A DNA stretch of 23,930 nt from Sistotremastrum niveocremeum HHB9708 (lineage: Eukaryota; Basidiomycota; Agaricomycetes; Sistotremastrales; Sistotremastraceae), in NCBI GenBank assembly GCA_001630475.1, contig KV419447.1, positions 47,044-70,973 of the forward strand, written 5' to 3'. The notes under the pieces are model-generated. The model was not told where the DNA came from and ran no database searches. It worked only from the letters and a program-made list of their open reading frames with translations. Below are positions 861 through 22,417 of this stretch, one piece after another; within the stretch, counting starts at the first letter, position 1, and each line of letters begins with the position of its first letter. A program made the translations under genes and the position numbers.

Positions 861-1198
861 GCGTTACGTCACGTCACACACACTCTTCGCTCTACACTCA
901 TCTGGTCCCTCACTGAATCATACGAAGATCCATTACCATCAATGCATTGCGAAGGAGGCTCAGTATACCGATGCAAGAGACATGAGGTTGAAATCAGATG
1001 ACCTTTTATGTATGGGATACAGTATAGAAGAGCGGTGAAGTTGCAGCTCGTAATCCTGACCTGCAGGGATGAAGCTGGGCGATTTGGGTTGTCTAGGACT
1101 GGTGCGTCGTCGAATACTCAGCTCTCACTTGGAGCTAATTCGTCAAACAAGACCGCCCACGCTGAAGTCATGTCACTTCGTGGGATGACGTGGCAGCC
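861..1198 (+). promoter_or_regulatory. U1 upstream module: CRE box, spliced leader, TGACGTGG box
   Basis: The CRE-type box GCGTTACGTCACGTCACACA lies at 861-880 with two overlapping ACGTCA cores, the binding core of ATF/CREB-type bZIP factors. A consensus intron follows at 1102-1151 (donor GTGCGT, branch GCTAATT, acceptor AAG), 241 nt after the box. The near-palindrome GGATGACGTGGCAGCC follows at 1183-1198. This suggests that the CRE drives its own spliced transcript upstream of the TATA promoter. No convincing coding frame is seen in it. Confidence 0.6.
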
Positions 1199-1389
1199 AA
1201 ATCGACGACTACCTTTTGCCCCTCCTCACGCTCTTACTTGCTTACGATCTCAGACAATCAATATCCTAGTCAACACACAATTCCCAATGTCCTCCTTTCG
1301 CCGCCACCTTCTAGTCCATTCAATCCCCCCTCCACACCCCAGCACTTCTTCATCTCGATTCGCAACCAACAGATGGCGTCCGCCGCTCC

Positions 1390-1760
1390 CCTGACTCCGA
1401 TCGGAAAGGATCTCGATCAGCGGATGATGCGATCACAATCGAAAAAGATAGTTCCGACGATCGAGTTAGATCTACTCCGATCGCGATCATATCTCTCTTC
1501 GTGGGCGCTTCCTTTACTCGATCTCATCCGACTGCATTCAAACAAGTAGAACGACTCTATCCTTTGAGGACCTCCTTTCCGACTTCTTCACAGTTCCTCT
1601 TGAGCTCTCCCGATTGACACCTCGATCTTCGGATGCCAAGACTTCATCCTCCGATCGCTCCCGTCACCCCCGAGAATGTGTAGGCGTCCGAGGGCGTATA
1701 AAAGGGGACCGCTTGAACATCGAATCCTTATCTCATTCCTATCTATCTCATCTCTAACGC
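1390..1760 (+). promoter_or_regulatory. U1 TATA promoter with GATC-rich block
   Basis: The region 1395-1500 contains eight GATC words by hand count. GATGCCAAGACTT is at 1632-1644, TATAAAAGG at 1697-1705, and the start region CCTATCTATCTCATCTCT at 1738-1755. The spacing between GCCAAGA and TATA (61 nt) is the shortest in the array because the A/T tract with TTCCG seen in other copies is missing or altered. Confidence 0.75.
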
Positions 1761-2595
1761 ATCGTCTTACCTTACTTCTTGAATCGACACTTCTAGATCC
1801 ACCAGCCTCCGACAGCATTCGCTGATCGACATACACAACACTCTCATAATCCAGTATCTCCCTACGTCTTTGTAGCCTGGGATTTGAGATCTTGAAGCTT
1901 CAAAGTATTGGCTCTTGATGATCACAGCGTCTTCGTCATGCGTGTTTGAGGTAAGAACATCCCCCTCTATTCTCTCTTCTATTGACTTTGAGCCTACCAT
2001 AGAGATCAGGTCATAGCAGTGACCCGATGCGCTGCATAATGTGGGCTGGTGCTCGCTCGATGAACATTATCAGGTTCGTATCCCACTTTGTGCACAGGCT
2101 ACATTATTGATAGATCGTCAGATTGACGCTTGACGGGCTTTATCCTTGCCTCGTATCCGCGGCAAAAGCCTGGAAATTTCGTGGTTGGGAGGAGAGTCCG
2201 AAATTTTCGGTGTGTACTTATTTTCACTCTTTGTACTTGGGTCTGACATCCATTCGTTAGCGGATACGCGCTATTTCAATGGATCGACTGGCAACGCCGA
2301 CTGCGTGAGATGTCCAAGATCATCTGGCAATTTCCTTGCACCAATGGGTTCCGTAAGCTACCAATACAACGACCATAATTATGGTACTGATTCGTAGCAG
2401 TGAGGTCCGCGTGGCACTGTCAACAAATCTGTTGCATGAGGTGGCCTTACCACAAACCATGTTCGAGACCTCTGATAATACGAATTTGAGAGGGTGTAAA
2501 TGCTCTGGTGCATGGGGACGCAAGCGTAGAGAGCTTCTTTTATTGTATTCTTGCATAGGAATTCCAGGTGATTACTGAAAACGAGGGACTTCGAG
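1738..2595 (+). other. U1 transcribed body with four introns
   Basis: The predicted transcript runs from the start region to the 3' block. Introns with consensus donors and acceptors are seen at 1951-2002, 2074-2121, 2210-2260 and 2353-2397. The 3' block is diverged: TTGTATTCTTG near 2543 and ATTACTGAAAACGAGGGACTTCGAG near 2571-2595. The body does not resemble the other units' bodies. A possible spliced frame is listed separately. Confidence 0.55.
1918..2308 (+). CDS. Candidate 79-aa spliced small protein of U1
   Basis: The first ATG downstream of the U1 start region (1918) opens a frame that stays open through four exons (1918-1950, 2003-2073, 2122-2209, 2261-2308) and three canonical introns of 48-52 nt, ending at TGA 2306-2308. 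The product begins MITASSSCVFE and ends MDRLATPTA. It has no signal peptide, membrane segment or known domain that I recognise, and no similarity to candidate products of other units. Support comes from first-ATG use and intron phases that agree. Against it: the frame was found by choosing introns, an overlapping read-through frame exists at 2146-2397, and sister units do not give matching proteins. It may be chance within a non-coding RNA. Confidence 0.3.
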
Positions 2596-2617
2596 ACGGT
2601 AGTTGAGACGTCTCAAC

Positions 2618-2886
2618 CAAGGGTACGTCATCGGCAAATGCCGGTATATCAGGTAGGTGTGGTGGGTTGTCGAAGAGGTCCTTAAAGTGGCGATAAGCTA
2701 AGGTCCGGGATCGGCAGCATTTCAATCTCCGACGGCATCTCGGAGATAAAGGACATAAGCGGACATAACCGTCGGCTACGGAGATAAGGCCTCCTAAATA
2801 GGCTAATCGCCGAGGTGGGTAGTCGCCGAGGGGCTTAATAAAAAAAAAGACCTGATATACAAAAAAAAAAAAAAAAAGGCCCCTTG
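2618..2886. mobile_element. hAT-like MITE copy 1 (269 bp) with 8-bp target duplication
   Basis: The element starts CAAGGGTACGTC and ends GGCCCCTTG, giving a short terminal inverted repeat CAAGGG. It is flanked by a perfect 8-bp duplication GTCTCAAC (2610-2617 and 2887-2894). Eight-bp duplications and short terminal repeats of this kind fit the hAT superfamily. It has no transposase, so it is non-autonomous. The right part carries two A-tracts and CCGAGGTGGGTAGTCGCCGAGG. Its first 69 bp differ from copy 2 at one position by eye, so both are recent. The poly-Phe open frame on the - strand is only a reading of the A-tract. Confidence 0.85.
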
Positions 2887-3011
2887 GTCTCAACGCAATT
2901 TCAGATACAACTCAGGGTATCTCGCTCTTCTCTCATATCGGGTGTATTCCTGGAATCGCCGTCTTCGTTGACGAGTTGAAGCGAAAAAGAGAGACCAAAC
3001 GATCACGAAAC

Positions 3012-3363
3012 GCGTTACGTCACATCACACAACTTCTTCTCCACCGTCGTTCAGCTCTTGGATTCTCAATTTCCTCTACGACGTGAATGGTCATGATATC
3101 GATTCTGGCTCTCATAACATTCCTTCTGATAGGATACGCGTTGGAAAGGGTTTTTTTGGCTCTCGCGACTAAATGGAATATCGGAGACGATTTTTTTGGA
3201 GGCGTGTTCGATGGATTCTTGGGTTCGGAGAGATAGGCGGCGCACGTCTTCTCTTTTCTTCTGTTTTTAACCCTTTAAAAACCCCTATTCCACCTTCAGG
3301 CCTGTGTAACTGATGGCACAACGCCTTGTTCGCCGCCTTGGACGTTCGGATGACGTGGCATCC
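3012..3363 (+). promoter_or_regulatory. U2 upstream module: CRE box and TGACGTGG box
   Basis: The CRE box GCGTTACGTCACATCAC is at 3012-3028, followed by the pyrimidine-rich CTTCTTCTCCACCGTC seen after several other CRE boxes. The near-palindrome GGATGACGTGGCATCC is at 3348-3363. No GTGCGT donor is seen at the position where U1, U3, U6 and U10 have one. Confidence 0.55.
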
Positions 3364-3499
3364 ACCATCCGTTCTCTTACTTTCGACCCGCTGTTCTATA
3401 ATCGCCTCCATACATCCATTCTACCTGGCGAATGACTACGAGATCCTGATATTCTCGCCTTTCTCTGTGCCTGCTGAACCAGCCGAACCTCGTCCGTTC

Positions 3500-3900
3500 T
3501 AATTGATCCAGCTTCTCATCACCCGCCTCCGTCGATCGTCGATCTCACCCTAGTGCGCCTCTTGATCAACTGAGAAGCTCCGATCGACATCTTCTGTGAT
3601 CTCCCTTCAAAGACTTCCGACCCGATCAAGCTCGAGCGACGCCGATCCCGATGACAGCTCTCTTCTTCGGCGTCTCCCTTCCTTCGAGTTTCCATTTTCA
3701 CCCAGGTCTCTCCCATCTCCGGACGGTATCATCGCCATTTCAATCGATCTCTGTGGACGCCAAGAATTGAATGCAAACTTCTTCCGACTCCTTCCTCCGA
3801 TCTGAGTTTCCCGATCCGGATCTCCCTCTCGAATGAAACGTATAAAGAGACGAACAAATTGAGGACGTTTCTTCATCTCCCCCGCATCTATCTGATCTAT
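3500..3900 (+). promoter_or_regulatory. U2 TATA promoter with GATC-rich block
   Basis: About twelve GATC words lie between 3500 and 3830. GACGCCAAGA is at 3756-3765, TATAAAGAG at 3841-3849, and the start region CATCTCCCCCGCATCTATCTGATCT at about 3874-3898. The TCGGCGTCTCCC..CTTCGAGTTTCC block at about 3666-3693 recurs upstream of U3, U5 and U6. Confidence 0.75.
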
Positions 3901-4768
3901 CATCTTCTTGGCTCCTTTTGTCTTTGAACACACCGCCACATGTTCTAGCGGAGCAAACTCCGCATTCCACTTATCGGCCGCTCTCGCCACACCGTTTTGG
4001 GCAGCCTTTGTAGTATCGGCCTGGGTCATTGTGCTCCCGTCGCATATCCTCAAGATGGAAATGGGTCTGCAAAGCGATCGTGCAACACCTCTAATGTTTC
4101 CGGTGAGTTTATTCCCAGCTAGGTCGTACATGTAGTCTTACTGATCTATTGATAGTGATGCTTGTAGAATCGCAAAATCCTGCGGTGAGGTTGGATTCCG
4201 AAGGCACCGCGTTTGAGTTAGGAAATTTCAGTAAGCAACCCGTACGCCTCGGTGATCGCCAAAGTCTCATTGAATCTTCACTCAGTTGACGTAGCCTCTC
4301 TAACCACCTATGTTCCGTCCCCCTCTATTCTCATGGGCGATCCCTTCGCTCTCGAATGTTGATCAACTTTCAAATGAAAGCATCGTTGGCGTGAGTCTCT
4401 ATTGCTCTCGCTCTGGATAAGATTCACGCTGATAAACGTTGCGCGCGGTGGCTAAAATAGCGTCTCGAACATCGCCACTCGTGCATCTCTCTCACGCCTC
4501 ATGCTGCGGAGTCGGTAGGCCTGGGTGTAATGATTGTTCATCTCGCGACGAATCTGTCGGGTGCGTTGTTCTCTGAAAAGCCTGGATATTTCGCGTCAGT
4601 ATTCCTGGTTGCACTACTCTTCTTGACAAGAGCTCTCGATTGTTCCGGATGGTTTGACATCTGTGAGCTAATTCTGTCGTATGTGTTGGTATATTCTTGG
4701 TTGGAGTCAGTCTTTGTGTATTCTTGGGTTCATTAGAGAATAGATTGTCTGAAAACTCTGGTGTGATC
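3873..4768 (+). other. U2 transcribed body with three introns
   Basis: Introns with good signals are at 4103-4155 (branch ACTGATC), 4231-4285 and 4391-4460. The first ATG opens only a two-codon frame. A later ATG (4054) opens MEMGLQSDRATPLMFP, which reaches the first donor in phase and then stops. The 3' block is ATTGTCTGAAAACTCTGGTGTGATC at 4744-4768, one of the best copies. No product is recognised; it could be non-coding. Confidence 0.5.
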
Positions 4769-4884
4769 GGAATAATAATATAATACGCTACGCTACCTGG
4801 GAACGGATTCCAATCGTCTTGTTGAGTTTTGGGAGCCCATTGTGAAAGCTAGAGAGATCGCGGTCACGGAAAGAGACTGAGAAC

Positions 4885-5250
4885 GCGTTACGTCACGTCG
4901 GACAATTTTCTTCGCTCCCTCAGGACACTCCTGTCATCTGTTTGTTTCGTCTGTCGAACGCACGACGCACCGAAGACTGAGATACTAGTATGACAATGGA
5001 GTCACTCTTGGACTAGCAGGGATTCGCTGTCGTTCTTGAGGCCGGATCCAAATATTCGGACAGCCATGAAAACTTCAGTCAAGGGACTCGATATTTGCTC
5101 TCACCCGGCTTGTGTTCGTGACGTGGTCTGGGACTGGGTACGTACCGTCATCATTCTCCTCTGTCAAGTTCCTACATCTCTAAATATTGATCATAGTCCA
5201 GCTCTTCAACCTCGTCTATCACTTCGCTCGCGTTGGATGACGTGGCCTCC
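4885..5250 (+). promoter_or_regulatory. U3 upstream module: CRE box, spliced leader, TGACGTGG box
   Basis: The CRE box GCGTTACGTCACGTCGG is at 4885-4901, followed by ACAATTTTCTTCGCTC. An intron at 5138-5196 (donor GTACGT, branch TCTAAAT, acceptor CATAG) lies 253 nt downstream. The near-palindrome GGATGACGTGGCCTCC is at 5235-5250, 39 nt after the acceptor. A long open frame (5036-5629) runs across this intron and the promoter behind it and is not accepted as a gene. Confidence 0.6.
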
Positions 5251-5479
5251 GTACCCCTTGACTTCTTCCGTCCTCATAACGCTGTCTATTCTACTGTGGA
5301 ATAAAGTCTACCGTCAAGGAAGCAGCAAATCCCGATTTCGCAGAACTCTGAACCGCCAAATTGGATCTACCGTCCGAAATCCCGCGTCATCGTCGTTCGT
5401 CACCATCGCATCCCATCTGTCATCTGCTCCCCCGGCTGAAAGAAGCTCCCTATACTTCCGTCGAGTTCCCTATCACAAT

Positions 5480-5776
5480 GGGATCAATTCTCGATCGACC
5501 GCGATCTGCGTCGATCACGATGACAGCTCCGTCCAACGGCGCCTAATTTCCTCTGAGCTTCGATTTCCCTCCCGAGGCTCACCTTGCGGTCCTCGACCCC
5601 ACCCCGATCTTCTCGGAAGTATAGAATGAGCGCGCCGAATGCCAAGCATTTGACTGGCCTTATTCCGATCTCTTCCTTCGATCTGACTTCTCTGCTCGAT
5701 TCTATCTGAGTCGAAATGGATAAAGAGGCGAGAGCCTCGAACGGTTCTGCATCTCATTTCTATCTCCCTGATCTCA
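5480..5776 (+). promoter_or_regulatory. U3 promoter with weakened TATA box
   Basis: A GATC-rich block is at about 5480-5610. CGAATGCCAAGC is at 5636-5647. At the TATA position the sequence reads GATAAAGAG (5719-5727) instead of TATAAAGAG. The start region CATCTCATTTCTATCTCCCTGATCTC is at 5750-5775. The spacing (78 nt) is normal, so this is a TATA variant in an otherwise intact promoter. Confidence 0.65.
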
Positions 5777-6680
5777 CCTCTATTTCATTCGTTAACATAT
5801 CTTGGATAAACCTGCGCTTTTTGGACTGCGGATTCATCCGTCCTCTACCTCCATACCCAGTACAGCTATCGTATCACCAGCTTCCCCATCTAGTTGTGCA
5901 TGTCTTTTTCCTTCCCGCTGTCGGCGTATACTTCGTCCTTTGCGATCCCCACGGGAAGCGATATTTTGGCGAGTATTCAGTGAGTGAATTGATGTTCTAA
6001 CTCTGTCTTCATCGGCTGACCTCGTCGCGCAGGGTTCCTATCTTGCTGATGTCGGTTAGCGAAAGGTCATAAGCGGGAACGTCTGTGGAAGAGTGTATCG
6101 CAGATCGGTAAGTCGTTCATGACTTTCACTATATCGGATTGTCTGATTGAATACAAAACTAGCCGTGCATTGAGGCATGTATTCTCAGACTATATCTAGA
6201 CTTCTTCCGTATTGATTTTTTCAGAGGCCCCATCAAGTCTCTCGATGCTTCCGGGGACAGAGTAGGGAAAGTATGGTATGGAATCCCCTTTGGTAAATTC
6301 CGCTTGCTCACGTCGAGTACTTGCCGCTAATTGGTCTTCAGACCCGGAAACTGAGGGCATTATCGGAGAGGTTTCTTTGTTTTGCAGTTTCGCCAGCACG
6401 TCCTTGAATGTGTTCCGTTGAAGGCTTGTGAGTCTGACTGGTTCATCATTCGGTGTCCGTTCTCTCATTATTTCCTGCTGTCAGGATATCCACCGCATAT
6501 ATGCGCATTTGATCTCTCAGTATCTTCGACTCCGAGTCTGCGGTGCGAGGCGTTGGAACGTGGCAGTAAAAGTCTCAGATCTTCGTCTCACGCATCTGCC
6601 AAACATCGCATGTCGGCAGTACTTGATGACAGGGCAATATATAGTGTGTAGCTCTTGAATAATAAAATGTTTCTTTGTCC
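5750..6680 (+). other. U3 transcribed body with at least two introns
   Basis: Introns are at 5980-6032 (branch GCTGACC) and 6108-6162 (branch TCTGATT). The first ATG after the start region (5900) opens a 39-codon frame across the first intron (5900-5979 joined to 6033-6072) that begins MSFSFPLSAYTSSFAIP and ends SVSERS. It is short and unlike other units' frames. The 3' end has AATAAA at 6661-6666, then TTGTCCAGAATACC, a weak copy of the TTGTCTGAAA block. Confidence 0.45.
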
Positions 6681-6699
6681 AGAATACCCCTGTCAGAAG

Positions 6700-7047
6700 G
6701 ATGGAATGAATGTTCTTGATCAGCTGATTCTGTCGCTCATCAAGCGATAGTACCCCGCTCCGAAGATGAGATTCGTCGATCTGACAGGACTTCTTTGGCG
6801 CTCAAAACCTCAACAGTCGTCTACGATCCACGATCGTGCCGATCTCACTCGGTGCTCCGTCCTCGATCTCTCCCGCGATGTTTACAGATCCTCCCGAATG
6901 CCAAGCTTTTCTGAAAATAGCTTCCGCTTTCTCCTTTCTATTCAACCGCTCACGATCTCCGTGACCCAGGATTCCTCTGCTGCAACGTATAAAGAGAGGA
7001 CCATTTCAGTCGTTTCCCCCCATCTCGTTCTTATCTATTTCGATCTA
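6700..7047 (+). promoter_or_regulatory. U4 (short unit) TATA promoter
   Basis: A GATC-rich block begins right after the U3 3' end (about 6716-6890). GAATGCCAAGCTTTT is at 6896-6910, CTGAAAATAGCTTCCG at 6911-6926, TATAAAGAG at 6988-6996, and the start region CCCCCATCTCGTTCTTATCTATTT at about 7016-7040. There is no CRE module between U3 and U4. Confidence 0.75.
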
Positions 7048-7671
7048 GTAGTTCAACAAATCGGGTTGATTACTTGTATGTGCAAAGACGGCTGGGCCGT
7101 GAGTTCCGCTCTTCTTCTTTTCTTTTTTTCATTTCAAACCGCACTGATGCTTTCTCTCGTCTTGCAGTGTCTACGGGGTGCTGGTCAGCCTACGTAGATC
7201 GTTCTTGGTGTTCTGTGTGAGGGGTATGGCTTTTTTAGCGGTAGACCTCTGAAAGGGTGAGTATTTTCACCGATTTTACTTCGTGATCGAACATCACAGT
7301 AACGTCTGAATCTCGCATAGATAAATCCCCGGTTTCAGGGCGGCCTGACTTATCGTTCGTTCACCTGCTTCAATGTCGAGGCTATAGGGTCAGAATCGAC
7401 TGAAGTATGTTCTTTCTTTCTCTATTGATCTATAACCCCTCATATTCTTTGCTTATAGGGCGACGTGTGATCTTTACCGTGCACACCTTGATCATGGGAG
7501 GATTTCGTTGCTCTCCTCCTCTTCAATTCCTGGGGAGGTGAAAGTTATTGTTCGCCTTGATTGGTATTCGTGCGTTGTGTCGCTATTAGATGGGGCCTCC
7601 ACCGGCATCTTGTATCGTACTATTGGATAGTGATAGTGGAACTGTGTGTGTGAAATATCTCGCGTGAGATT
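7016..7671 (+). other. U4 transcribed body with three introns
   Basis: Introns are at 7099-7167 (pyrimidine-rich, branch ACTGATG), 7257-7299 and 7405-7458. The first ATG (7078) opens a 16-codon frame across the first intron: MCKDGWA joined to CLRGAGQPT, with a stop at 7195-7197. This is too short for a confident protein call and favours a non-coding RNA or a micropeptide. The 3' block is GTGTGTGTGAAATATCTCGCGTGAGATT at about 7644-7671. Confidence 0.45.
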
Positions 7672-7830
7672 TTGCTTGCAAGTTCTTACTCAAACCTTCC
7701 CGATCTTGAGATCGTCTGTTCCGGCTCTGATGTGTTCATTATAATGATCGAATGTGGATCAAGTGTCAACGCTGCTTATATTTCCATTCCAATTAACCCA
7801 ACAAACTCGAATCGCTAGATTCAGAGCGGT

Positions 7831-8033
7831 GCGTTACGTCACGTCCCGCTCACAATTTTCAGCTTGCCATCGTCGACATCCACGGGTCCTGTGATCCAAG
7901 GCACGGAATTGAGTCGTTACGAGTCCTATGAATCGCTGCTGTCCTCAGGATTTCAACTCCTGTGTCAGATGATGTTCATACAAAAGACTCAGCTCGTTGA
8001 GAAGACAGAGGGCTAGCAGATGACGTGGACGCG
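7831..8033 (+). promoter_or_regulatory. U5 upstream module: CRE box and TGACGTGG box
   Basis: The CRE box GCGTTACGTCACGTC is at 7831-7845, preceded by AACAAACTCGAATCGCT, which recurs before the U8 CRE. AGATGACGTGGACGCG is at 8018-8033, a weaker copy of the TGACGTGG box and closer to the CRE (187 nt) than in U1, U2, U3 and U6 (322-352 nt). Confidence 0.55.
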
Positions 8034-8630
8034 TCAGCGTGGACCATATCTCTCTTTACAATTTTTATTGATGAGTCGATCAATTGGCTCTGTCATTGAA
8101 GTTGATTGATTCGAGATTAGCTAACCCTGAAAGTCGGTCACTATTTCTACTCAAATGCGTTGAAAATATCTGCATCGGACGATTTTCGGTATGGAGGCAT
8201 TGCCAGCCCCTTGCGAGCAGAGATTCCATTTGACGGTTGTGCTGGATGATGCTGGAAAGAGAAGGATGTGGGTCAGAGGATGACATCTAACCTCAACTGG
8301 TGTGTCCTTCGTGCTCATGTGCTCAATAAGCTCTGCTGACACCCCAACCTTAGATATCCTTCGTACCTTTCGATATTCAAGGCACCCATCTCCCTACTCT
8401 TGATGAAATCGAACATTGGTCAGCGTCATCATAAAGCCATGTATCTTGGTCCCCTGAACGCTCCCTCCGTACTCTCGACAATTCAATTCACACATTTAAA
8501 TCGTCGCGTTGGATGTCTTCCTCTCCCATAGCAAGTAATGATCCAAATGTCAGTTGAACGAGGAAGCGAAGCTCAATCTTTCATATGGTGATCTGTTCAT
8601 GCTCCCCCCGTCTTCGTGCGGCCTCTTGAA
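8034..8630. other. U5 intermodule stretch, no gene seen
   Basis: About 600 bp lie between the TGACGTGG box and the GATC-rich promoter block. Overlapping short frames occur on the - strand (8080-8342), with no motif. Nothing else is supported. The U5 unit is longer here than its relatives, so extra sequence may have been inserted. Confidence 0.3.
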
Positions 8631-8639
8631 ACCTGAGTT

Positions 8640-9070
8640 CGATCAAAACCGAAATCGAGCTCGGATCTCACCTATCATCTCAATCTCCCGATCCACCCGC
8701 ACTCATTGACATGCCTTCTTCCAATGATCTCCTCCGGAACGAATTCAGTCCCCGGCGATCGAACTTGTCCCGGCTTGAGGCTCTGATCGAGGAGAAGCGA
8801 ATCCTGAGACAGAGGATCGACGAGCGCTACGTGGGCGTCTAATGCACTTCTGGCTTCGATTTGCTTCCGCATTCTTCCCTTCATCGTTGATGTCCAATCC
8901 TGTGAACGCGATCTCCGTGAATGCCAAGAGTTTTCTAAATATACGTTCCGATACCGCCCTTCGATTCAGTTGAATCTCGATCGTGATTCTGATTTCTTGA
9001 GCCGCTCGTGTATAAAAGGACAGAGATTACGAGGTAATCCCCCATCTTTCCCCCATCTATCTTTATCTCA
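8640..9070 (+). promoter_or_regulatory. U5 TATA promoter, close to consensus
   Basis: A GATC-rich block is at about 8640-8915, including GAGCTCGGATCTC shared with U8 and U12 and GGGCGTCTAAT shared with U12. GAATGCCAAGAG is at 8919-8930, TTTTCTAAATATACGTTCCG at 8931-8950, TATAAAAGG at 9011-9019, and CCCATCTTTCCCCCATCTAT at 9041-9060. This copy is among the best for deriving the consensus. Confidence 0.8.
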
Positions 9071-10094: not shown

Positions 10095-10309
10095 GATTCG
10101 TCTTGATTGGAATTTAGCAGGCTTCCGCGAAGAACATGAGACCGAAGAGTCAAGCGAAGAGCATGGCACCAGAATCGTTTGGCGTTTGATTTCTTGCACA
10201 AATCCCAACGGAAGGTTCATTAAATTTCACCATTGTATCAACGGAGATATGAAAACCTGGCAATTCGAGCAGAAGCCGTCAAATAAACAAACGAAAGGTG
10301 TCACGGAAC

Positions 10310-10672: not shown

Positions 10673-10849
10673 AACACCTTTCGTTCTCCATACAAGGAAC
10701 GCTCCATCGACGATGAGACGGAAGACTCTATCTATACTCGCCACGTTGAGATCGTCGCGAATAATCTCCTCTCAGCCCCCCTCCATCCGTAACACTGGTG
10801 CCAGGCCCCAACATCTCTCGGCATGTGTCCAGATCTCATCCCTCCAACC

Positions 10850-13149: not shown

Positions 13150-13322
13150 TATTTCCGAGTCGGCCGATCATGATCGATAATAATCATGGCTGACGGTCTT
13201 GCTTACGCAAATCAAGAGGATGTATAATCACAAAAAATCCGAATATATTCTGCAGACTTGGGGTCATCATGAGCCTAATGTCACAAAGTCAACAAACTCG
13301 AAACGCTCAATTGAGCGACGTC

Positions 13323-13870: not shown

Positions 13871-14059
13871 TCCACCCTCTGAGCACGCCCTCTCCATCAA
13901 CGTCGGCATTGCATCCAACACAGTCTCAAATCATCTCTGTTGTCCTTACGCCTGCAATCGATCATTGGATCCTCCTCTGCGATATCGCCCACCCCCCTTG
14001 AATTTTACTTTTCGCCTTCAACATGACCTCCGCCTTCTCAAATCACGAAACGAGTTCCA

Positions 14060-14550
14060 ACCTGTCGATAAAGAGCCCGATGCTCACGGCTTTCAAACGA
14101 TACTAAGGACACGATCGACATGCTGAACTGAGCTCGGATCTCCATTCCACTCCCCTTGAACATCTCGATCTCGATCCCGATCCAATCCCTTTCTCCGGTG
14201 CCACAACTTCTATTGAACATTATATACCCCGCTCCGTAATCGAGCAGAGGCTCACGATCGAGAGAATCTGTATGCTCGACACGTTCTTCTCCGGCGCTTA
14301 TTGGGCGCCTCCTGCAGAATTCATCTCGATTTCCTCCCGAATTGGTGTCTGCTGTGTATCCTTTCTCGAATGTATGCTACGTCTCTCCCAATGCCAAGAC
14401 CTTACCTACATAACCGTTCCGAGTCCCTCCTTCAATTCAGTCTGCTTCTTCTCAGACCCGATTTGATCCTGCCTCGCGCCAACGCACGAATATAAAAGGA
14501 CAATGACATCGAGACGGCTCCTCATCTCCCCCCCATCTATCTCTATCTAG
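14060..14550 (+). promoter_or_regulatory. U8 TATA promoter, near consensus
   Basis: A GATC-rich block is at about 14100-14270. CAATGCCAAGACC is at 14389-14401, TATAAAAGG at 14491-14499 (98 nt, the longest spacing), and CATCTCCCCCCCATCTATCTCTATCTAG at about 14523-14550. A weak second GCCA-like site with ATTATATA near 14199-14228 is not counted as a promoter. Confidence 0.8.
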
Positions 14551-15590
14551 TCTTTGATTATAGAGGATGCTATCTTGTTTTGTGTCGGCTTCGTTTCGCA
14601 TCTTCTTGATTGCTCATCCTCGTCACTCCTCAATACGGCTATGTCATCAGTTCTCTGGTGCCTGAGTTTCCCTCAAAAATGCTTCTGCGCATTCCTGGAA
14701 GACATGCATCGCTGTAATGAGGACATGCTGATGATCGGAGCAGGGTAGAAGTGAGTTCTTGAGTGGTCTTGTCGCTGACATGTGGCTGAGTCCATGAACA
14801 GTGCCCCCTATATATGAGCTTTGCGATATAGGTAATTTCTTCAATTCTATGTCGCCTTCTATTGTGTTTGATAATCTTCGAGAACTGGGGTTTCGTTGTT
14901 GGACTTGCAAGAAGTAGAAAGACAATGGCTTTCAGTACGTATTTCTGCTTGTGTATGGACTGTACAACTGATTGTTGAATCATGCCTCTGCTTCAGTGGC
15001 TTCGCACTTCTCAAGAATCCTCAAGCCGCAAGGTCATCTGGCATTCGTATCCGTGAGCTAAAATTCCTTATCGTTCTGCCGGAATACTGTGATTGACCTA
15101 TTATTAAAGTATGGCGATGTTATTTGGTCCATGCTCAAAGTCTTGTGTTCGAAGGTACGTGATTCGCTCAACGTCGCTTCTCTCGAGATTCTGAATCCAT
15201 TCATTCATAGCCAATGGGCTCTGGTCAATCCACAGGCATCGAATTTTGGCGCAGAATCTCGCCTGCCTCAAGGTGTGTCCCGTGCTTCGATTCATTAACC
15301 AATATTTAACCGTCATTCAGTTCGCTTCGAGGAGTCGGAGTGGCTGCTGAGGACATTGGGCTAATTTTCACGGGCGACCTCGGGCGTCATTCGAGAGGCA
15401 AGTGAAGGAGGGTACGGTGTCTACCTGCGTCAGTGTTCAGATGCCGCAGTGCAGGTATTCGGGTTTGTCGAGGTCAACGAGGTGATACAGTCCCTCTTCA
15501 ATCTGATTCGTGTGATTTTTGTTGGCTGTCAGTTCTTGTATTGTAGTCTTGGTTTTCAAAAAGTTTTCTGCGTCTGAAATCATCGGTTAT
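14521..15590 (+). other. U8 transcribed body with five introns
   Basis: Introns with good signals are at 14751-14801, 14935-14996, 15053-15109, 15155-15210 and 15273-15320. After splicing the last four, two different frames stay open for about 70-80 codons. One includes SRILKPQGHLAFVSYGD and ends GDLGRHSRGK. The other includes PMAMLFGPCSKSC and ends SEWLLRTLG. They cannot both be real and neither joins cleanly to an upstream ATG. The 3' block has TTCTTGTATTGTAGTCTTGG (about 15533-15552) and GCGTCTGAAATCATCGG (about 15570). Confidence 0.45.
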
Positions 15591-15599
15591 GACGCACAG

Positions 15600-15946
15600 A
15601 AAAATATTCAATGTTCAAGAGATCGGCAACTTGAAAACCGATGACGATATTGTCCCTATTGGCTTCCCCAGATTCCTCTTCATTTCCTCAACTCGATCGA
15701 CAGCTTCACTCGATCATCCGTTTCGATCGGAGTCCTGAGCTCCCGGTGATTAAGCTCCCGATGCTTCTGACATCTCGATCGTTGAACCAATTCCTCCCGG
15801 ATGCCAAGACATTTCTTAAAATACCTTCCGTTCCTTCCCTTCTATTCAATCTTCTCCGGATACTCGATTCAATACTACGAGTGGTGAGGGGTATAAAAGG
15901 AGCACCGTCGCATTCGGTTTCCACATCTCACCCCATCTATTGACGT
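15600..15946 (+). promoter_or_regulatory. U9 (short unit) TATA promoter
   Basis: A GATC-containing block is at about 15690-15785. GGATGCCAAGAC is at 15799-15810, ATTTCTTAAAATACCTTCCG at 15811-15830, TATAAAAGG at 15892-15900, and CATCTCACCCCATCTATTG at about 15924-15942. There is no CRE module. It is very similar to the U11 promoter, including GAGGGGTATAAA before the start region. Confidence 0.8.
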
Positions 15947-16819
15947 CCCACTTCACTCCGGACTCTGTAGCTTTCTTGGTTTTCCCATGAACATCTATCC
16001 CGTAAGTAATGATTGACCGTGACTATATTTGTCTGACAACCACCTCATTCGCAGTGCTCTCTCCCCAGTCCTTGTCCACGTTCTCTTCGGCGCTTTCGAC
16101 ATTACGACTTTCTCGGTTAGCTTCGAAATCAATTTTCTCCGGTGAGATATATCTGAATCTTCTTGCGAGTATTGAGATTGATATGACCGTAGATTTGCAT
16201 CAGGACGATCTAGATTCAGGGCCTTTTGCTTGGTTGATCGAAGTGCTGAAGTTGGGTGTTTCCTCTTGAGAGCCGACTCTGAGCTGATTCGTACTTCAAG
16301 GACTTTCTGTGTCTTGAATCTTGCCGCCACTCATTTTCGCTGTCCCGGATGCTATGTGTGAATGGAGCTTCGGAAGTGGAAGACAGTGAGTTTTTACGAT
16401 TGTCACATTTCGATTGCTACTCACACGGGTTTCTTTTCTTCCTAGGCCATCATTCGACTACCTGCTCTCGGACGTTCATGTATGGATGTGAGTGAACCAA
16501 CATGATGAAAGTGTCGGAGTATTACTTATCTCATTATCATTTTAGCCATTTATGACTCCCAAGATTGATGTTCATCAGTCGTGAGACCCATTGGAAATCG
16601 ATCTAGAAATAGGCTTAGCATCGGGATGCGAAGAGGGTGAGGTTGGGTTTCCGGAGTTTCGTGTGTGGGGTGAAACGTAATCGTATTGTGGACTTCGTTT
16701 GCTCGGAGCGACTAGATAGTTGCTGGAATTAGTAGGGGACCTTCAGCTCGATGTATTTCCTGTAGATCAGTCTTGAATACGGAAAAGCAAGTATTTGTCT
16801 GAATTGTTTCGCGTGAGAC
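15923..16819 (+). other. U9 transcribed body with several introns
   Basis: Introns are at 16002-16054 (branch TCTGACA), 16386-16445 and 16498-16545, with another possible at 16142-16192. The first ATG (15987) opens MNIYP before the first donor. With the first acceptor the frame ends after 26 codons. With a second acceptor at 16068 it stays open to TGA 16267-16269 (about 54-71 codons, ending EVLKLGVSS). The choice cannot be made from sequence. The 3' block ATTTGTCTGAATTGTTTCGC is at 16793-16812. Confidence 0.45.
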
Positions 16820-16860
16820 ACTACCCGGCAAACAAACTCAATAGCCGATTAAGTCAGAAC

Positions 16861-17190
16861 GCGTTATGTCACGTCACACCACATTTTTTCCCCACCGTCT
16901 CACACACCACCACTACCCCAGGATGTCGGCTCAGTTCACTTCATCCAGCACGGATGCGAAGCCAGGAACATATTCTCAAATGAATGAAGATGGTCAATAG
17001 GTCGAGAAAGCCGCCACATCGCTGATTTCTGGGGTGGATGCCGACGCATAGAATTCGTCGAGGGAAAGACATGGACATCGGGGTTCAGATTGTTCAAGTG
17101 CGTTGCCCTTTCGTTGCCAAGAGAGTTCGGAGGCTCACGCTGATAATTAGCTGAAATTAGAATAATATTATCATCGATCCACGACTGGTG
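16861..17190 (+). promoter_or_regulatory. U10 upstream module: CRE box and spliced leader
   Basis: The CRE box GCGTTATGTCACGTCACACC is at 16861-16880, 68 nt after the U9 3' block. AGCACGGATGCGAAGCCA (about 16948) is shared with the U12 leader. An intron at 17098-17150 (donor GTGCGT, branch GCTGATA, acceptor TTAG) lies 237 nt after the CRE. GAATAATATTATCA follows at about 17160, similar to U8. Confidence 0.6.
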
Positions 17191-17279
17191 GAGGACGCAT
17201 CAGCAACAGCAGCCTTTCTCGTCGTCTCTGGAGAAGAATACCGTCGCTCTTTCTACGTCATCATCTCCACCCGTACTAA

Positions 17280-17745
17280 TCCTCGGTCTCTCCAAACTCG
17301 ATCTTCAAGGATCCGCGTCTGATCGACATTTCGAATCGAGCTCGCGTCTCAATTCTCGAGCGCGGATCCTTGCTTGTCTCGATCGCGATCCACACGGCCG
17401 CGCCGATCCCTCCTTTCAGGATTGCGGAGTCCCCTTCAGCGCAATGTTCCTTCTCCTCCACGATCAGGAGCGATCGAACTAAACTTTCGGGATCTGGGGG
17501 AAGCGCTTCTTCGGCGTCTGATGCGACATCGATCGTCGTCGTCGTGCGGATCTCTTTCAGTGCCATCGTAGAACATGTCTCCCGTATCTGCCTCGCATCC
17601 CGATGCCAAGAGTTTCTATAAATATACGTTCCGGCTCCTTCCCTCAATTCAATCCAGCGGAACACAAATCATCTTGGCGACTTGTATAAAAGGTCGTGGC
17701 CATCCAGACGCCCCTCCATCTCTCCCTCCTCTATCTCTATCTAAT
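17280..17745 (+). promoter_or_regulatory. U10 TATA promoter with densest GATC block
   Basis: About twelve GATC words are in 17283-17560. CGATGCCAAGAG is at 17601-17612, TTTCTATAAATATACGTTCCG at 17613-17633, TATAAAAGG at 17685-17693, and CCATCTCTCCCTCCTCTATC at about 17716-17735. Confidence 0.8.
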
Positions 17746-18778
17746 CTTCTCTTGGAATGAATCTCGTCCCATTATCATCTCATTTCCTGTGTTACCAGCT
17801 GGAAGATTTCTTACTAATTGGACGATAGCTGTCTACTTCTCCGACGCTCTATCGACCAACGGCTTCTTGCATCATCATCATTCATTAAGGGTTCTACGGG
17901 TCCTCCTGCGACATTGATTGGTGAGCATCTTGACCTTTTGCACGCTGGATCCTGCTCAATATATGCCTAGGAATTGCCTCTCAGCGCCGACGAACTCATC
18001 CGATCTACGTGACTCTGAAGACCGTGTCGGGTACGGAGACTCGTAGTAAGAACTTTCCTTCGCCTTTGCTGTCCACAACATTTCATACTTAATCAAGAAC
18101 TCTCCAAGCAACGTTTTGCGGTGCGTGCTCTCTCTATCATTGTGGTTAATTAACTTGATGTACTGATCTCTAATGCAGGGACATTTCATGAGTAGCCGCT
18201 CACTGGGCGTTACTTCTTCCGGGAACGAAATCGGACAAGCTCGTATCGCGTGAGTGAGAGTTACTCAGCTGCCAATGAGACGCCGAGATTGACTGCTTAT
18301 CATGTTAGGTGCGGCGGTTCTCGTCGAATTCGTACCCTCGCACCCATTGTCCGAGAGTATCAGCACGGTGATGTTCTGTGTCCCCGTGAGTCATTCATAC
18401 GATAATGTTTCTGTTGCGACGCTGAGTTTGGCAATCTCCAGGCTGCATCGCAGCTACACCGCCAGACTTTCGGCTTCAGGTAAGCTTCATTCGTGCGCTT
18501 TGAGTCTCATGACTGACATCCTCGAAGGTTTATAAATGACTAAAAGTGGGAACCAGTGGCCTGGCTTGCCATGTTGCCTGCCGATTCTCTAGGGACATTG
18601 CAAGACTCGACGTCATAGGTCGCCAGTCGGTGTGTATGTGTGTGTACTCCTCCACGATGCCGGTGATTTGTTCCCGGTGTTGTTGATGCGTGACGGGTGA
18701 ATTTAGCTCTTTCACTTCTTGTATGCTACTTTTGGATATAATGAAATGTCAGTTGTCTGAAAATATCCGGCTGTGCTC
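17714..18778 (+). other. U10 transcribed body
   Basis: This is the transcript span containing the candidate frame at 17757-18539. After the stop come about 180 bp without a clear intron, including a TGTGTATGTGTGTGT tract near 18631, then CTTCTTGTATGCTACTTTTGG (about 18715) and AGTTGTCTGAAAATATCCGG (18751-18770), the 3' block. Confidence 0.55.
17757..18539 (+). CDS. Candidate 139-aa protein of U10, eight exons
   Basis: The first ATG after the start region opens a frame that continues through eight exons: 17757-17788, 17829-17920, 17971-18045, 18098-18120, 18179-18249, 18309-18385, 18442-18479, 18528-18539. The seven introns are 40-59 nt with GT-AG ends, and most have a clear branch site (for example TTACTAATT, TACTGATC, ACTGACA). 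Phases agree at every junction. The product starts MNLVPLSSHFL, has a basic patch SQRRRRTH near residue 45, and a Cys pair VLCPRC near residue 120. No known domain is recognised and no sister unit gives a similar protein. It is the best coding candidate in the array, but choosing introns to keep a frame open inflates the evidence. Confidence 0.4.
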
Positions 18779-18789
18779 GCCGACTCGAA

Positions 18790-19140
18790 CGACAAGAATG
18801 CTGAGCTTCGTCGAGTAACCAATTGAAGGGCTCCTGTCGATCAGACTCGATCTTCGCCAATGTTGTCATCGGGAGAATCCTCCCGATCCAGTCGGCTCGA
18901 TGAGAAGCTTGTCTCGATTTTCCAAATGACAGGACTTCCGAAGGGCAAGAGTATCCTCCCAAAGATCTCGATCGTCGAAGAAAATCCTCCCGAACGCCAA
19001 GACGGTTCTTAAAATAGCCTCCGATCCCTTCCTTGCATTCAATCCTGTCCGGGTGGTCGATGCGATGTTCCGAGTGCTGAGGGGTATAAAGGGATGGTCC
19101 TCGCCTTCGCTTTCCTCCATCTCCCCCCCATCTATCAACA
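18790..19140 (+). promoter_or_regulatory. U11 (short unit) TATA promoter
   Basis: A GATC-containing block is at about 18838-18975. GAACGCCAAGAC is at 18992-19003, GGTTCTTAAAATAGCCTCCG at 19004-19023, TATAAAGGG at 19085-19093, and CCATCTCCCCCCCATCTATC at about 19117-19136. It is strongly similar to U9, 3193 nt upstream, and to U13. Confidence 0.8.
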
Positions 19141-19788
19141 TCTTGGCTATCTGCGAAGACCCGTGCTTCTTGATTTTCAGTTTCAGAGCTACAGCGTGAG
19201 AGTCTCAGTGTTCAGGGCCGGAACGAGTACTGATTGTTATCGCTTCATTTTTCAGCTCTCTTGCGCAAAGTCTCATTTTCGGGTCGACTATCACTTACTA
19301 CACCACCTCTGCGACTTCGATTCAGCCGCCTTGAAGCCGGGTGTCCTCTTCCTCAGGAATGGGCCAGGCTCAATGATGTGAGTGACGGTCTTGATATCTT
19401 TTCACACTCTCGCTGAGACTTCTCAACTATTAGTACCGACTATTACATGGTGTGGGTAAGTAATTGATTATTCTCTTTTGGAGGCAGCTTAGTGTTGTTT
19501 AGATAGGCGTAAAGGAATCAGGACATCGATTATACCCGTGTTTCAGGCTGGTTAAACCGTGTGGGTATTCTGAGACGAGCAGGAGTTCGAGTACATGTGA
19601 TGACGAGTTCGGTGCTGGCGTATGTTCGGGACAGGCTGGTGACTGCACAGGAAAGTAATCGGGCGGTGGATCATTGCGATATGGAAGGGATTTAGCTCAA
19701 ATGTGAGCGCGTCTGCCTCGTGACTATTTTATTTGTAGTTTTGGATGATAAAAAGCGAATATTTGTCTGAAATACCTCGTGCGATGTG
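19117..19788 (+). other. U11 transcribed body with three introns
   Basis: Introns are at 19196-19255 (branch ACTGATT), 19378-19433 (branch TCAACTA) and 19456-19502. The first ATG opens only a five-codon frame; the second is listed as a candidate gene. The 3' block is GTAGTTTTGGATGATAAAAA then ATTTGTCTGAAATACCTCG at 19761-19779, interrupted shortly afterwards by the hAT-like element. Confidence 0.5.
19373..19658 (+). CDS. Candidate 60-aa cysteine-containing small protein of U11
   Basis: The exons are 19373-19377, 19434-19455 and 19503-19658, split by introns of 56 and 47 nt, ending at TAA 19656-19658. The product starts MITDYYMVW, and the second half holds five cysteines (YPCFRL, KPCGY, STCDD, GVCSG, GDCTG). 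No signal peptide precedes it, so it does not look like a standard secreted cysteine-rich effector. The ATG is the second in the transcript. A 51-codon uninterrupted last exon with regularly spaced cysteines is suggestive but can occur by chance. Confidence 0.28.
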
Positions 19789-19794
19789 TGACAC

Positions 19795-20210
19795 CAAGGG
19801 TACGTCATCGGCAAATCCCGGTATATCAGGTAGGTGTGGTGGGTTGTCGAAGAGGTCCTTAAATAAAAAAAAGTTATGATTTTTTTAATTGTTTCTACAG
19901 GCTTTTAACTAGGTTTGGTACTATATATGAGTCAACCCAGCGTGTTTTGCGTCCCTTCGTCATGTCCGTAGTGGTAGGCACCTCAATTGACTCTTATTTG
20001 GACCATCGGGTGACGGCAAACCAAGTATCCTAGCTCGGCAGATTTTCAATGTCCGACGGCATTTCGGAGATAAAGGACATAACCGGACATAACCTTCGGG
20101 TTCGGAGATAAGAGCTCCTAAATAGGCTAATCGCCGAGGTGGGTAGTCGCCGAGGGCCTTAATAAAAAAAAAGACCTGATATACAAAAAAAAAAAAAAAA
20201 AGGCCCCTTG
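19795..20210. mobile_element. hAT-like MITE copy 2 (416 bp) with 8-bp target duplication
   Basis: The ends CAAGGGTACGTC and GGCCCCTTG are the same as in copy 1. It is flanked by a perfect 8-bp duplication TGTGACAC (19787-19794 and 20211-20218), different from that of copy 1, so the insertions are independent. The two ends match copy 1 closely; the middle carries about 150 bp more (about 19865-20030), including TTTTTTTAATTGTTTCTACAG. Copy 1 may be an internally deleted form, or the middle of copy 2 an addition. No transposase frame is present. Confidence 0.85.
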
Positions 20211-20360
20211 TGTGACACTTTTGGTGATAATTTACTAACCACTTTCTCAGCACGGCTTCGGCTCCGAGATTCCATGAACATGAGCATATATCCAAAATAA
20301 TCTCTCATCCCCTCCAAGACTTGTGGAAATTGAAGCCGTGGAGACAAACGAACCGATGTC

Positions 20361-20560
20361 GCGTTACGTCACGTCACGCAATATTTTCTTCTCTCCACCA
20401 CATCGATTTGGACCATCACCGAAAGCACGGATGCGAAGCCAAGAGCCTCTGATTCGACGACGCAGGTTCCCACGGATACTATTCAAGTTCAATCGTGTCG
20501 ATCTGGAGGATGGATGTTGGATTCTCTTGAAGGCAGGTGGTACTGGATGACGCGATGGAT
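20361..20560 (+). promoter_or_regulatory. U12 upstream module: CRE box
   Basis: The CRE box GCGTTACGTCACGTCAC is at 20361-20377, followed by GCAATATTTTCTTCTCTCCACC. GCACGGATGCGAAGCCAAGAG (about 20427) matches the U10 leader. GGATGACGCGATGG at about 20544 is a mutated TGACGTGG box. The GTGCGT donor is not conserved (AGGTGGTACT near 20535). Confidence 0.55.
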
Positions 20561-20789
20561 GTAGGATAGGCTTGGGAGACGGGATTATTCGTGTACGTGG
20601 TTCTTTCCATTCGCAGTGCTTCATGTTCGCTGATAGTTGTAGTTTGATATGTATCTGATGAGAAGCTCGATCCGTCTAAGATGTACCGAAGACGCGTCAG
20701 CCCCCGATCCTGCACTGTTCTCCCACTCCTCGCTCCTGATCAACCCCTCTGCATTGCCTTCACTATGTAACCCAAATCCCGGATGTAAA

Positions 20790-21206
20790 CTTCCACGATC
20801 GATCTGTATCTTGAATCGAGCTCGGATCTCGAAGCTTATGCCTGGGCCTTCTCGATCCCGATCCACGCGCATCTGACGATACCTTCTCCAAAGTCACTGA
20901 GTCTTCTCCCGGAAGATCGTGGAGCTATCCTTCTGGGATCAAATTGGATCTGCGTCCAGCTTGGGATCGGGAATATCAAACATGAAGGGCGATCTTCGAC
21001 TTGCTTCTGGGCGTCTAATCTCTTTCCACCCTTCATGCGCCTCCGGTGTCCATCGAATGCCAAGAGCTCTGTCAAACATATCCTCCGATTCTCTCCTTCC
21101 ATTCAAATCTATTTATGGAGCCAAGACATCTGCCTGCCGACTCGCTAGTATATAAAGGACAGGGTATCGACTTCGTATCCTCATCTTACCCGCATCTATC
21201 CCCATA
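20790..21206 (+). promoter_or_regulatory. U12 TATA promoter
   Basis: A GATC-rich block is at about 20798-21000, including GAATCGAGCTCGGATCTC shared with U5 and U10. GAATGCCAAGAG is at 21055-21066, CAAACATATCCTCCG at 21073-21087, TATATAAAGG at 21149-21158, and CATCTTACCCGCATCTATCC at about 21182-21201. Confidence 0.78.
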
Positions 21207-21915
21207 TTCTGGGAAATTCTTCTTCGTGTTTTCTTGGATTTTCTAACAAATATTGGAGAGAATGAACTCGACGTGCTACCGCATTTCCGGACCCAATGCT
21301 TTGCTCTCCGCCCATGTACTCCTCGTTCGAGGCCGTCGAGGTTCACGTGTGAAGCAAACATGTGTACGCATTTTGTTCTTTATTCAGCCGTGGATTTGCT
21401 GAGATTAGTGCGTAGGAGTCCTGCGATGACTCGGTTGTGGATCATCGGTCCGGCGGCATTAGGGTCTCCCACCATCCGTTCGTCTTCTGAGCAAGATACT
21501 GCGGCTGCTTACATTCATACCTCGCCAGTGGGGATTGCATAAATCTCGTACGTTGGTCGTATATGGATCCATGATACCACTGAGTATTCACCACAATTTG
21601 GTGAGTTTCGGATTGTTTCGTTGACTGGGTTGCTTACTAGTAATGACTCCTTTCAGGTCGGTTATATCACATTGTGCCTGTTGGCCGAACAGCCTAGCAG
21701 CAAACTCACGTTCGCACTGAAGCGTCTAGTATGACAGCAACGGGATGTATAGGGGATTGAGCTCGGAAGGATGCCAGGTGCTGGGAAGAACTTTCCGATG
21801 GATTCTTTTGGGCTCTAGAAACCGGTTGCGTTCATCGAGTGCGAGAGCTTTGGTAGTCATGCTGAACAGTAATTTCTTGTCGCGTAGTCTTGGGTAATAA
21901 ATTGAGCGCGTACTC
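21180..21915 (+). other. U12 transcribed body
   Basis: One clear intron is at 21601-21656. Upstream, either 21362-21408 or 21408-21462 can be an intron, and each keeps a different frame open: from ATG 21262 (starts MNSTCYRISG, about 77 codons, ends TSPVGIA) or from ATG 21360 (starts MCTHFVLYSAVDLLRL, about 88 codons, ends ALKRLV at 21731-21733). As in U8 the two readings exclude each other. The 3' end GTAGTCTTGGGTAATAAATTG is at about 21885, with ACTCTGAACATTGCC near 21911. Confidence 0.42.
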
Positions 21916-21949
21916 TGAACATTGCCTATACCTCTCGGGATAAACAATC

Positions 21950-22308
21950 ACCAAGATGAGTCAGAGAACTGTGATGCAATGCACAGACTCCAATCGCCGA
22001 ACCTGGAGCGGATCGCTTTGGCGATGAAGGCCGGTTCGATCGCACTCTTTGACGGGACTTCTCAAGACGATCAACGTTTTATGCCGCCGATCGTTCGCCG
22101 AGTATGAATTCTATAGAGATCTTCGCGGATCCCTTTCGATCGGCATTTCTCTCGATCGTCGGGAGAAAATCTCTCGAACGCCAAGAGATTCTCAAAATAG
22201 CTTCCGTATCCTCCCTTCAATACAATTCCTTTCCGCGTCCTCATTCGTCACCTCATGTCCTAGAGGTCTGCTCGTTTTCCCTCCATCTTTCCCCATCTGT
22301 TTTAATCT
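21950..22308 (+). promoter_or_regulatory. U13 (short unit) promoter remnant without TATA
   Basis: A GATC-containing block is at about 22010-22160. GAACGCCAAGAG is at 22176-22187, ATTCTCAAAATAGCTTCCG at 22188-22206, and the start region CCATCTTTCCCCATCTGTTTTAATC at about 22282-22306. At the expected TATA position (about 22258-22270) the sequence reads CCTAGAGGTCTG, so the TATA box is lost. It is followed by TTTCTTGGTTT (about 22333) as in U7 and U9, then the array ends without a 3' block. Confidence 0.7.
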
Positions 22309-22417
22309 AAGTCATCCCCACATTTTGAACTTTCTTGGTTTCGCATCATTTATCTAGTTTGTGAGTTCCTCGGCTAGTCCCGAGTTGAATATATGGTAGC
22401 AAGGTCAGTGCGAAGAG

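Follow-up and report, generated by a model that had tools for sequence, protein, structure and literature searches.

The DNA described here is a stretch of 23,930 nucleotides from the basidiomycete Sistotremastrum niveocremeum HHB9708 (contig KV419447.1, here C54, positions 47044-70973, in a genome of 34.7 Mb and 111 contigs), referred to throughout as the window. With a probability of roughly 0.6, the window appears to contain a tandem array, one of many in this genome, of genes for spliced noncoding RNAs that are retained for regulated transcription and splicing in preference to the sequence of the RNA. Each unit would comprise, in order, an optional distal element with tandem TGACGT sites (P1), often with an intron-bearing segment of its own, a GATC-rich region, a proximal promoter (P2), a body and, where it was found, a 3'-end motif of the TTGTATTGTAGT type. 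The units are taken as putative noncoding RNA genes since promoters and splice sites are conserved, exons are free to change and no open reading frame (ORF) is maintained.

An earlier note, made by eye from the letters of the window, had described thirteen head-to-tail promoters preceded by a GATC block, many introns, and twelve retained 3' ends around mutually unrelated bodies. All 13 promoters were located, each anchored by GCCAAG on the + strand (at 1634, 3758, 5640, 6899, 8922, 11065, 12339, 14392, 15802, 17604, 18995, 21058 and 22179), and the GATC block was borne out also, 101 of the 200 copies of GATC in the window lying no more than 300 nt upstream of an anchor. A TATA box is present in 12 of the promoters, and in the alignment of these 12 the invariant elements are GCCAAG, ATCT and, within the TATA box, ATA. 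The consensus runs from CCGAATGCCAAGA through a TTCT.AAAATA..TTCCG block and TATAAAAGG, which lies approximately 85-100 nt past the anchor in most units, to a CATCT..CCCATCTATC pyrimidine-rich region. Immediately after the latter, TTCTTGG or TTCTTGT is clustered, with 13 copies in the first 50 nt past position 150 against 0-4 in later bins (26 units). The profile built from the 12 TATA promoters matches all 13 (expectation value, E, 1e-36 to 8.5e-11), the thirteenth, which lies outside the profile, scoring weakest. Promoter 13 (22179) is decayed: its TATA box is gone, and the end of a repeat (22395-22431) starts approximately 215 nt downstream of its anchor. The same repeat end occurs elsewhere in the genome in inverted pairs 0.85-0.9 kb apart. 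The intervals assigned to P2 are as follows.

1620-1790 (+): P2 promoter 1, with GCCAAG, TATAAAAGG and a pyrimidine-rich start region
3744-3930 (+): P2 promoter 2, from anchor and alignment of the 12
5626-5800 (+): P2 promoter 3, from anchor and alignment of the 12
6885-7065 (+): P2 promoter 4, short unit without P1
8908-9090 (+): P2 promoter 5, relatives on C33, C37 and C96
11051-11230 (+): P2 promoter 6, relatives on C33, C37 and C96
12325-12500 (+): P2 promoter 7, short unit without P1, relatives on C33, C37 and C96
14378-14570 (+): P2 promoter 8, from anchor and alignment of the 12
15788-15970 (+): P2 promoter 9, short unit without P1
17590-17765 (+): P2 promoter 10, from anchor and alignment of the 12
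18981-19160 (+): P2 promoter 11, short unit without P1
21044-21230 (+): P2 promoter 12, from anchor and alignment of the 12
22165-22320 (+): P2 promoter 13, TATA lost, assigned by profile match

The promoters are followed by bodies of approximately 0.6-1.1 kb with several predicted introns of approximately 50 nt each. The abundance of introns was confirmed with a simple in-house score, the minus strand serving as control: within 1701-22330 the + strand has 28 intron-like sites and the - strand 7 (score 3.5), and the density over 36 units was 2.39 per 900 nt against 0.67. The 3' ends fared less well, in that a TTGTATTGTAGTNTTGGATAATA-like motif, at up to 7 mismatches in 23 and with no chance estimate attached to the count, was recovered in 8 of the 13 units and not in twelve; at 3 mismatches there were 2 sites against 0 expected. 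The claim that the bodies are unrelated holds within the window, one inserted repeat apart, but fails for units 5, 6 and 7, which have body relatives in other arrays. Comparison of the window with itself by blastn showed similarity in the promoter, P1 and upstream regions, together with the one inserted repeat common to two units. Clear paralogy of bodies at the protein level had been named in the earlier note as evidence against its own description; translated comparison listed 4 of 78 window pairs, one of these being the inserted repeat and the other three standing at E 0.005-0.01.

1735-2560 (+): body 1, putatively spliced and noncoding, start approximate, to the 3'-end motif at 2538; inserted repeat 2616-2886 after it
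3875-4745 (+): body 2, 3' end by eye only
5750-6669 (+): body 3, 3' end by eye only
7015-7632 (+): body 4, 3'-end motif at 7610
9045-10062 (+): body 5, 3' end placed by eye alone, introns predicted at three positions, each in three of four copies
11170-12078 (+): body 6, 3'-end motif 12056-12078
11399-11450, approximately 11601-11651 and 11723-11768 (+): predicted introns of body 6, the second GC-AG here and GT-AG in the C96 relative
12470-13116 (+): body 7, 3'-end motif 13094-13116
14520-15558 (+): body 8, 3'-end motif at 15536
15935-16785 (+): body 9, 3' end placed by eye alone, with an intron-like site at 16002-16054
17715-18741 (+): body 10, 3'-end motif at 18719
19115-19750 (+): body 11, 3'-end motif at 19728
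21180-21899 (+): body 12, 3'-end motif at 21877

The inserted repeat is an interspersed one, present at 2616-2886 and 19793-20210, with CCAAGGG...CCCTTGG ends and an A-rich stretch. The first copy is without an internal stretch that the second has, and related copies lie on more than 10 other contigs.

Searches of the genome with stretches of the window revealed collinear relatives of units 5, 6 and 7 on contigs C33, C37 and C96, the four copies of unit 6 being alignable over the whole length between promoter and 3' end. Three units and the six pairs of four arrays give 18 comparisons, which are non-independent, and in every one of them, with promoters and bodies aligned separately, the promoter was better conserved than the body (66-91% identity against 52-79%), as had been claimed. 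When the introns were split off, mean identity was 78% for promoters, 67% for introns, 63% for intron interiors and 60% for exons; the promoter stood above the exons in 18 of 18 pairs, the introns in 14, and the intron interiors without splice signals in 12. The 77-nt spacer past the 3' end of unit 6 is 43-74% identical between copies, which is exon-like. Since the exons of this unit drift at about the rate of the spacer, it would seem that exon sequence matters little. Splice sites, meanwhile, recur at common positions. In unit 6, three introns occupy positions that at least three of the four copies have in common, with the end of the third lost from C37. For the second of these introns, three copies use GC-AG and the remaining copy GT-AG. 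Unit 5 has three intron positions, each common to three copies, and unit 7 has one common to two copies and a second by eye. Exon drift under conserved promoters and splice sites therefore favours a function in transcription and splicing. The promoters themselves were inherited and not homogenised, since identity is 77% for the same unit across arrays (18 pairs) against 53% for different units within an array (12 pairs); gene conversion of promoters is disfavoured by the same figures. Two related units on C33 and C37 have lost the TATA region, as unit 13 has.

The test of the bodies for coding constraint, run on the related arrays of the same genome, gave no coding signal. The longest ORF after predicted splicing averaged 59.6 codons over 36 units, against 66.1 in dinucleotide shuffles and 62.3 on the unspliced minus strand; 5 of the 41 units found by profile search were too short for this test and 2 of the 41 for the translated comparison. 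Gaps in the bodies were multiples of three in 34 of 267 cases over the 18 pairs, and in 5 of 26 in the closest, C33-C37 pairs (introns included). No ORF of more than 10 codons is common to at least three of the four relatives, with none in unit 6. The ORFs that are so shared consist of one of 9-10 codons in three of four copies of unit 7 and three of 2-5 codons, of which two fall within the promoter, and number 4 with real start and stop codons against 1, 1, 3 and 2 in four permuted sets. Translated comparison of 39 bodies gave 24 related pairs in sense frames, 28 in antisense frames, and 21 and 19 with reversed letters, and 17 of the 20 body pairs at E 0.002 or better recur with reversed letters. 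No match above the curated Pfam cut-off was found in 12 array ORFs. In a tandem protein-coding family, conservation of the coding part would be expected to be no lower than that of the flanks, which is not the pattern here. The features of a long noncoding RNA (lncRNA), by comparison, are present at sequence level: an absence of protein-coding capacity in these tests, and a promoter of the RNA polymerase II type with introns and, in the eight units above, a 3'-end signal. What the sequence itself shows is the anatomy of the units, the noncoding manner in which their bodies evolve, and that promoters and splice sites have been retained. The largest ORF on the + strand, at 5036-5629 (197 aa), lies upstream of promoter 3 and overlaps a predicted intron; it has no Pfam match, and no genome match in the search of its stretch, and probably arose by chance.

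The distal element P1 (GCGTTACGTCACGTCAC) was found upstream of 8 of the 13 window promoters, at 0.7-1.1 kb. At up to 3 mismatches it gave 11 matches against 0.04 expected, the 11 being 8 distinct places plus 3 overlapping or opposite-strand readings of those places. In its full form P1 carries TGACGT twice on the - strand; with this tandem TGACGT, the element (TTACGTCA) is by consensus presumably a CREB/ATF-type basic leucine zipper (bZIP) site. The window contains 27 copies of TGACGT against 13.1 expected, a number reached in 0 of 100 shuffles, P1 itself accounting for much of the excess. Units without P1 (4, 7, 9, 11 and 13) are the short units, with 1.1-1.4 kb separating each anchor from the one before it; a corresponding division of the promoters into two classes, for short and long units, is weakly supported, 67 of 1287 relabellings being as good or better. 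The segments between P1 and P2 have 18 intron-like sites in sense against 3 in antisense (16 segments, 17.6 kb, score 4.5), with at least one site in 12 of 16 segments in sense and 3 of 16 in antisense. Three of 19 segments are left out of this count, namely C96:12524, which has three + intron-like sites, and C37:6377 and C68:919, which have none.

861-877 (+): P1 element of unit 1, GCGTTACGTCACGTCAC, two TGACGT on the - strand
3012-3028 (+): P1 element of unit 2
4885-4901 (+): P1 element of unit 3
7831-7847 (+): P1 element of unit 5
10310-10326 (+): P1 element of unit 6
13323-13339 (+): P1 element of unit 8, then intron-like site 13787-13840
16861-16877 (+): P1 element of unit 10, then intron-like site 17098-17150
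20361-20377 (+): P1 element of unit 12, then intron-like site 20593-20642

Exact P1 15-mers (GCGTTACGTCACGTC) also occur at C8:685978, C10:859633 and C45:56722, with no array unit found nearby, and could belong to ordinary genes that share this control.

The array is one of many. A profile search of contigs C54, C68, C74, C96, C37, C33 and C27 gave 41 units at 30 bits or more (18, 5, 5, 4, 4, 4 and 1, respectively), a single 20.8-bit promoter fragment at C54:113140 being excluded from the unit counts. The genome-wide search for the promoter consensus that the earlier note had proposed returned 85 hits to a strict pattern, against 2 for the reversed control. These represent 59 distinct starts on ten contigs (C9 22, C74 10, C54 9, C68 6, C80 5, C42 2, C45 2, C8 1, C27 1 and C67 1), among which single sites such as those on C8 and C67 may be due to chance. 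A looser pattern gave 153 hits against 12 in the control, and approximately 40 of the 100 hits listed lay outside arrays and were background-like. Since the strict pattern recovers just 18 of the 41 known units, the true number of promoters may, by extrapolation, exceed 100. The longest run, at C9:217075-327227, spans 110 kb and holds at least 22 promoters of the same kind, all on one strand, with eight neighbouring pairs 1.1-1.5 kb apart; this array is known by position and matched starts alone, and noncoding bodies are assumed for it. On C54 itself, a Plavaka transposase is encoded at 107086, approximately 36 kb past the right end of the window (E 5e-83). Together with the intron length of approximately 50 nt, this transposase suggests that the genome is probably that of an Agaricomycete.

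Neither Rfam nor folding gave a convincing signal of structured RNA or of a known RNA family. Rfam gave three matches in the window, each below the gathering score and each within the inverted repeats that lie at its two ends. The mean folding z was 0.16 on the + strand and 0.08 on the - strand, with 6 and 5 of 108 folding windows, respectively, below -2; folding of alignments against column shuffles was mostly near zero, very low values at ragged alignment ends being discounted. The units as host genes of small nucleolar RNAs (snoRNAs) were also rejected, Rfam having found no snoRNA in the window; introns of approximately 50 nt are too short to hold one. With regard to a telomeric position of the arrays, no run of four TTAGGG copies was found in the assembly. 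As to the origin of the bodies, genome searches with 861-19790 and 20220-23620 returned only array relatives, inserted repeats and repeat-like matches of less than 60 bases. No donor of foreign bodies is among these matches, and bodies 5-7 descend collinearly with their own promoters, which disfavours the suggestion that a promoter array captures new bodies.

Among other explanations, the one that survives best, though it is unlikely, is that the bodies diverge fast because the RNAs act in targeting, whole or as small RNAs cleaved from them, in the manner of a cluster of PIWI-interacting RNAs (piRNAs). A shared promoter over divergent bodies at many clustered loci does resemble the Ruby-motif layout, as described for C. 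elegans (PMC4015492). However, the stretches searched match no transposons or other genes beyond the inserted repeats and the short repeat-like matches, drift in unit 6 exons is about as fast as in the spacer and no faster, and the transcripts look long and multi-exonic. Multi-intron RNAs could, for their part, feed a splicing-coupled small interfering RNA pathway of the kind reportedly present in Cryptococcus. It is improbable, and ranks below the targeting explanation, that the array is a selfish or decaying repeat whose units multiply by segmental duplication, with dead bodies and no cellular role. The Plavaka element on the same contig, the repeats inserted in the array, the loss of the TATA region in unit 13 and the two related C33 and C37 units, and the spacer-like drift of unit 6 exons are all in keeping with such an array; however, promoters and splice sites are retained in divergent copies, where even decay would be expected of dead repeats, and the promoters within an array have not been homogenised. 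Finally, a hypervariable family of small proteins, with fast-evolving peptides such as effectors, pheromones or toxins in short exons, is very improbable: TATA promoters, many introns and a tandem layout would suit a secreted-protein family, some single-unit ORFs reach at least 100 codons and the two closest pairs have their best scores in sense frames, but ORF lengths are not above chance overall, most gaps break the frame, related pairs are no more frequent in sense than in antisense frames, and neither a shared ORF of more than 10 codons nor a Pfam family was found.

Several observations weigh against spliced noncoding RNA genes retained for their transcription and splicing. Transcription, start sites, splicing, bZIP control and function are read from sequence. 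Body evolution is traceable in three units only, all of them in four related arrays, shared intron positions were assessed without a shuffled control, and the intron calls and the 3'-end count carry the limits given above. P1 was not found near the C9 promoters with the pattern used. Intron conservation is mostly that of the splice signals, since the interior is barely above the exons, and for this reason the introns as the product are not supported either. In 2 of 36 units the spliced ORF was reached by few shuffles (fractions 0.05 and 0.07), one of the two being unit 13, where other sequence interrupts the body. Translated comparison of the C33-C37 pair of unit 6 gave 5e-35 in sense and 1e-30 in antisense, with 8e-22 and 9e-12 in the reversed-letter controls, and the second of the two closest pairs gave 2e-30 against 3e-26; the sense-frame matches of both run through stop codons, that of unit 6 through two. 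A very short or unusually translated product is conceivable. With regard to structure, one folding window of 108 stood at z -3.8, and in some windows of the alignments the column-shuffle z was as low as -2.3 (unit 5) and -3.2 (unit 7).

Of the three readings offered in the earlier note, that of spliced regulatory RNAs is the one favoured, and it stands as far as spliced noncoding RNA. In such genes RNA polymerase II would most likely start at P2, with P1 as a possible further start, and the RNA would undergo splicing and polyadenylation without giving rise to a conserved translation product. P1 could be a bZIP-controlled distal start or an enhancer. Transcription might serve to keep the locus open, with read-through from P1 to P2 priming P2, or the transcripts might feed an RNA pathway that is indifferent to sequence. 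More tentatively, the genome perhaps holds at least 100 tandem noncoding RNA genes under selection on the two-part promoter and splice sites and not on the RNA, a possibility that would imply either a dedicated transcription or splicing output (chromatin-opening or intron-supplying) or an RNA repertoire with rapid turnover. Noncoding RNA genes may act via the sequence of their RNA or via the act of transcription and splicing, and which of the two applies is a long-standing question, usually argued locus by locus. Here, dozens of paralogous loci in one genome appear to have the same promoter and splice architecture with freely drifting exons, some of them collinear at several divergences, and because of this the question is open to comparison and to deletion or swapping of bodies under a constant promoter.

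At its two ends the window carries an inverted pair (183-379 and 23619-23806, 79% identical over 199 bp) that is rich in CAACCGGCAACTGC; an ORF on C96 resembles the pair by eye, and the pair probably represents a transposon or a family of miniature inverted-repeat transposable elements. A short ORF at 381-637 on the - strand resembles a helix-turn-helix transposase, with Pfam HTH_23 just below cut-off. At the right end, 22791-23650 holds a spliced gene with no Pfam family above cut-off, which is probably, at a guess, transposon-associated.

A search of the literature, at the level of titles and the beginnings of abstracts, returned no arrays of this kind, and in the available text of a 2025 review of fungal lncRNAs (PMC12566771) the word 'tandem' occurs once and 'basidiomyc' never. 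The lncRNAs of the Agaricomycetes Coniophora puteana and Serpula lacrymans are alike in being noncoding and little conserved in sequence; they are mainly single-exon (60-65%), 'tandem' is absent from the main text of that account, and its relevant passages describe no shared-promoter family (PMC6525899). The Ruby-motif piRNA clusters of C. elegans share with the arrays many clustered loci, one common upstream motif and unlike bodies, and their precursors are described as capped and of 28-29 nt (PMC4015492). The present units have a shared upstream motif of their own, not the Ruby sequence, and in place of short intronless precursors they have bodies of approximately 0.6-1.1 kb with predicted introns and a 3'-end motif. 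By analogy, the nearest model for TGACGT-type sites combined with noncoding transcription towards a downstream promoter is the fbp1 locus of fission yeast, with its upstream Atf1-type TGACGT sites and its cascade of metabolic stress-induced long noncoding RNAs (mlonRNAs), as outlined in PMC7935937. Atf1-type TGACGT is in excess in the window, as given above, and the mlon-box gave 7 matches there against 6.9 expected, none of them at P1. The downstream product of fbp1 is reportedly a protein gene, and fbp1 is a single locus, whereas here there are arrays in which the downstream product is apparently another noncoding RNA. Vertebrate lncRNAs with conserved promoters, as characterised in PMC5853149, resemble the arrays in low conservation of the body and in promoter conservation as a mark of function; those, however, are dispersed mammalian genes, whereas the units described here form a tandem family within one genome.

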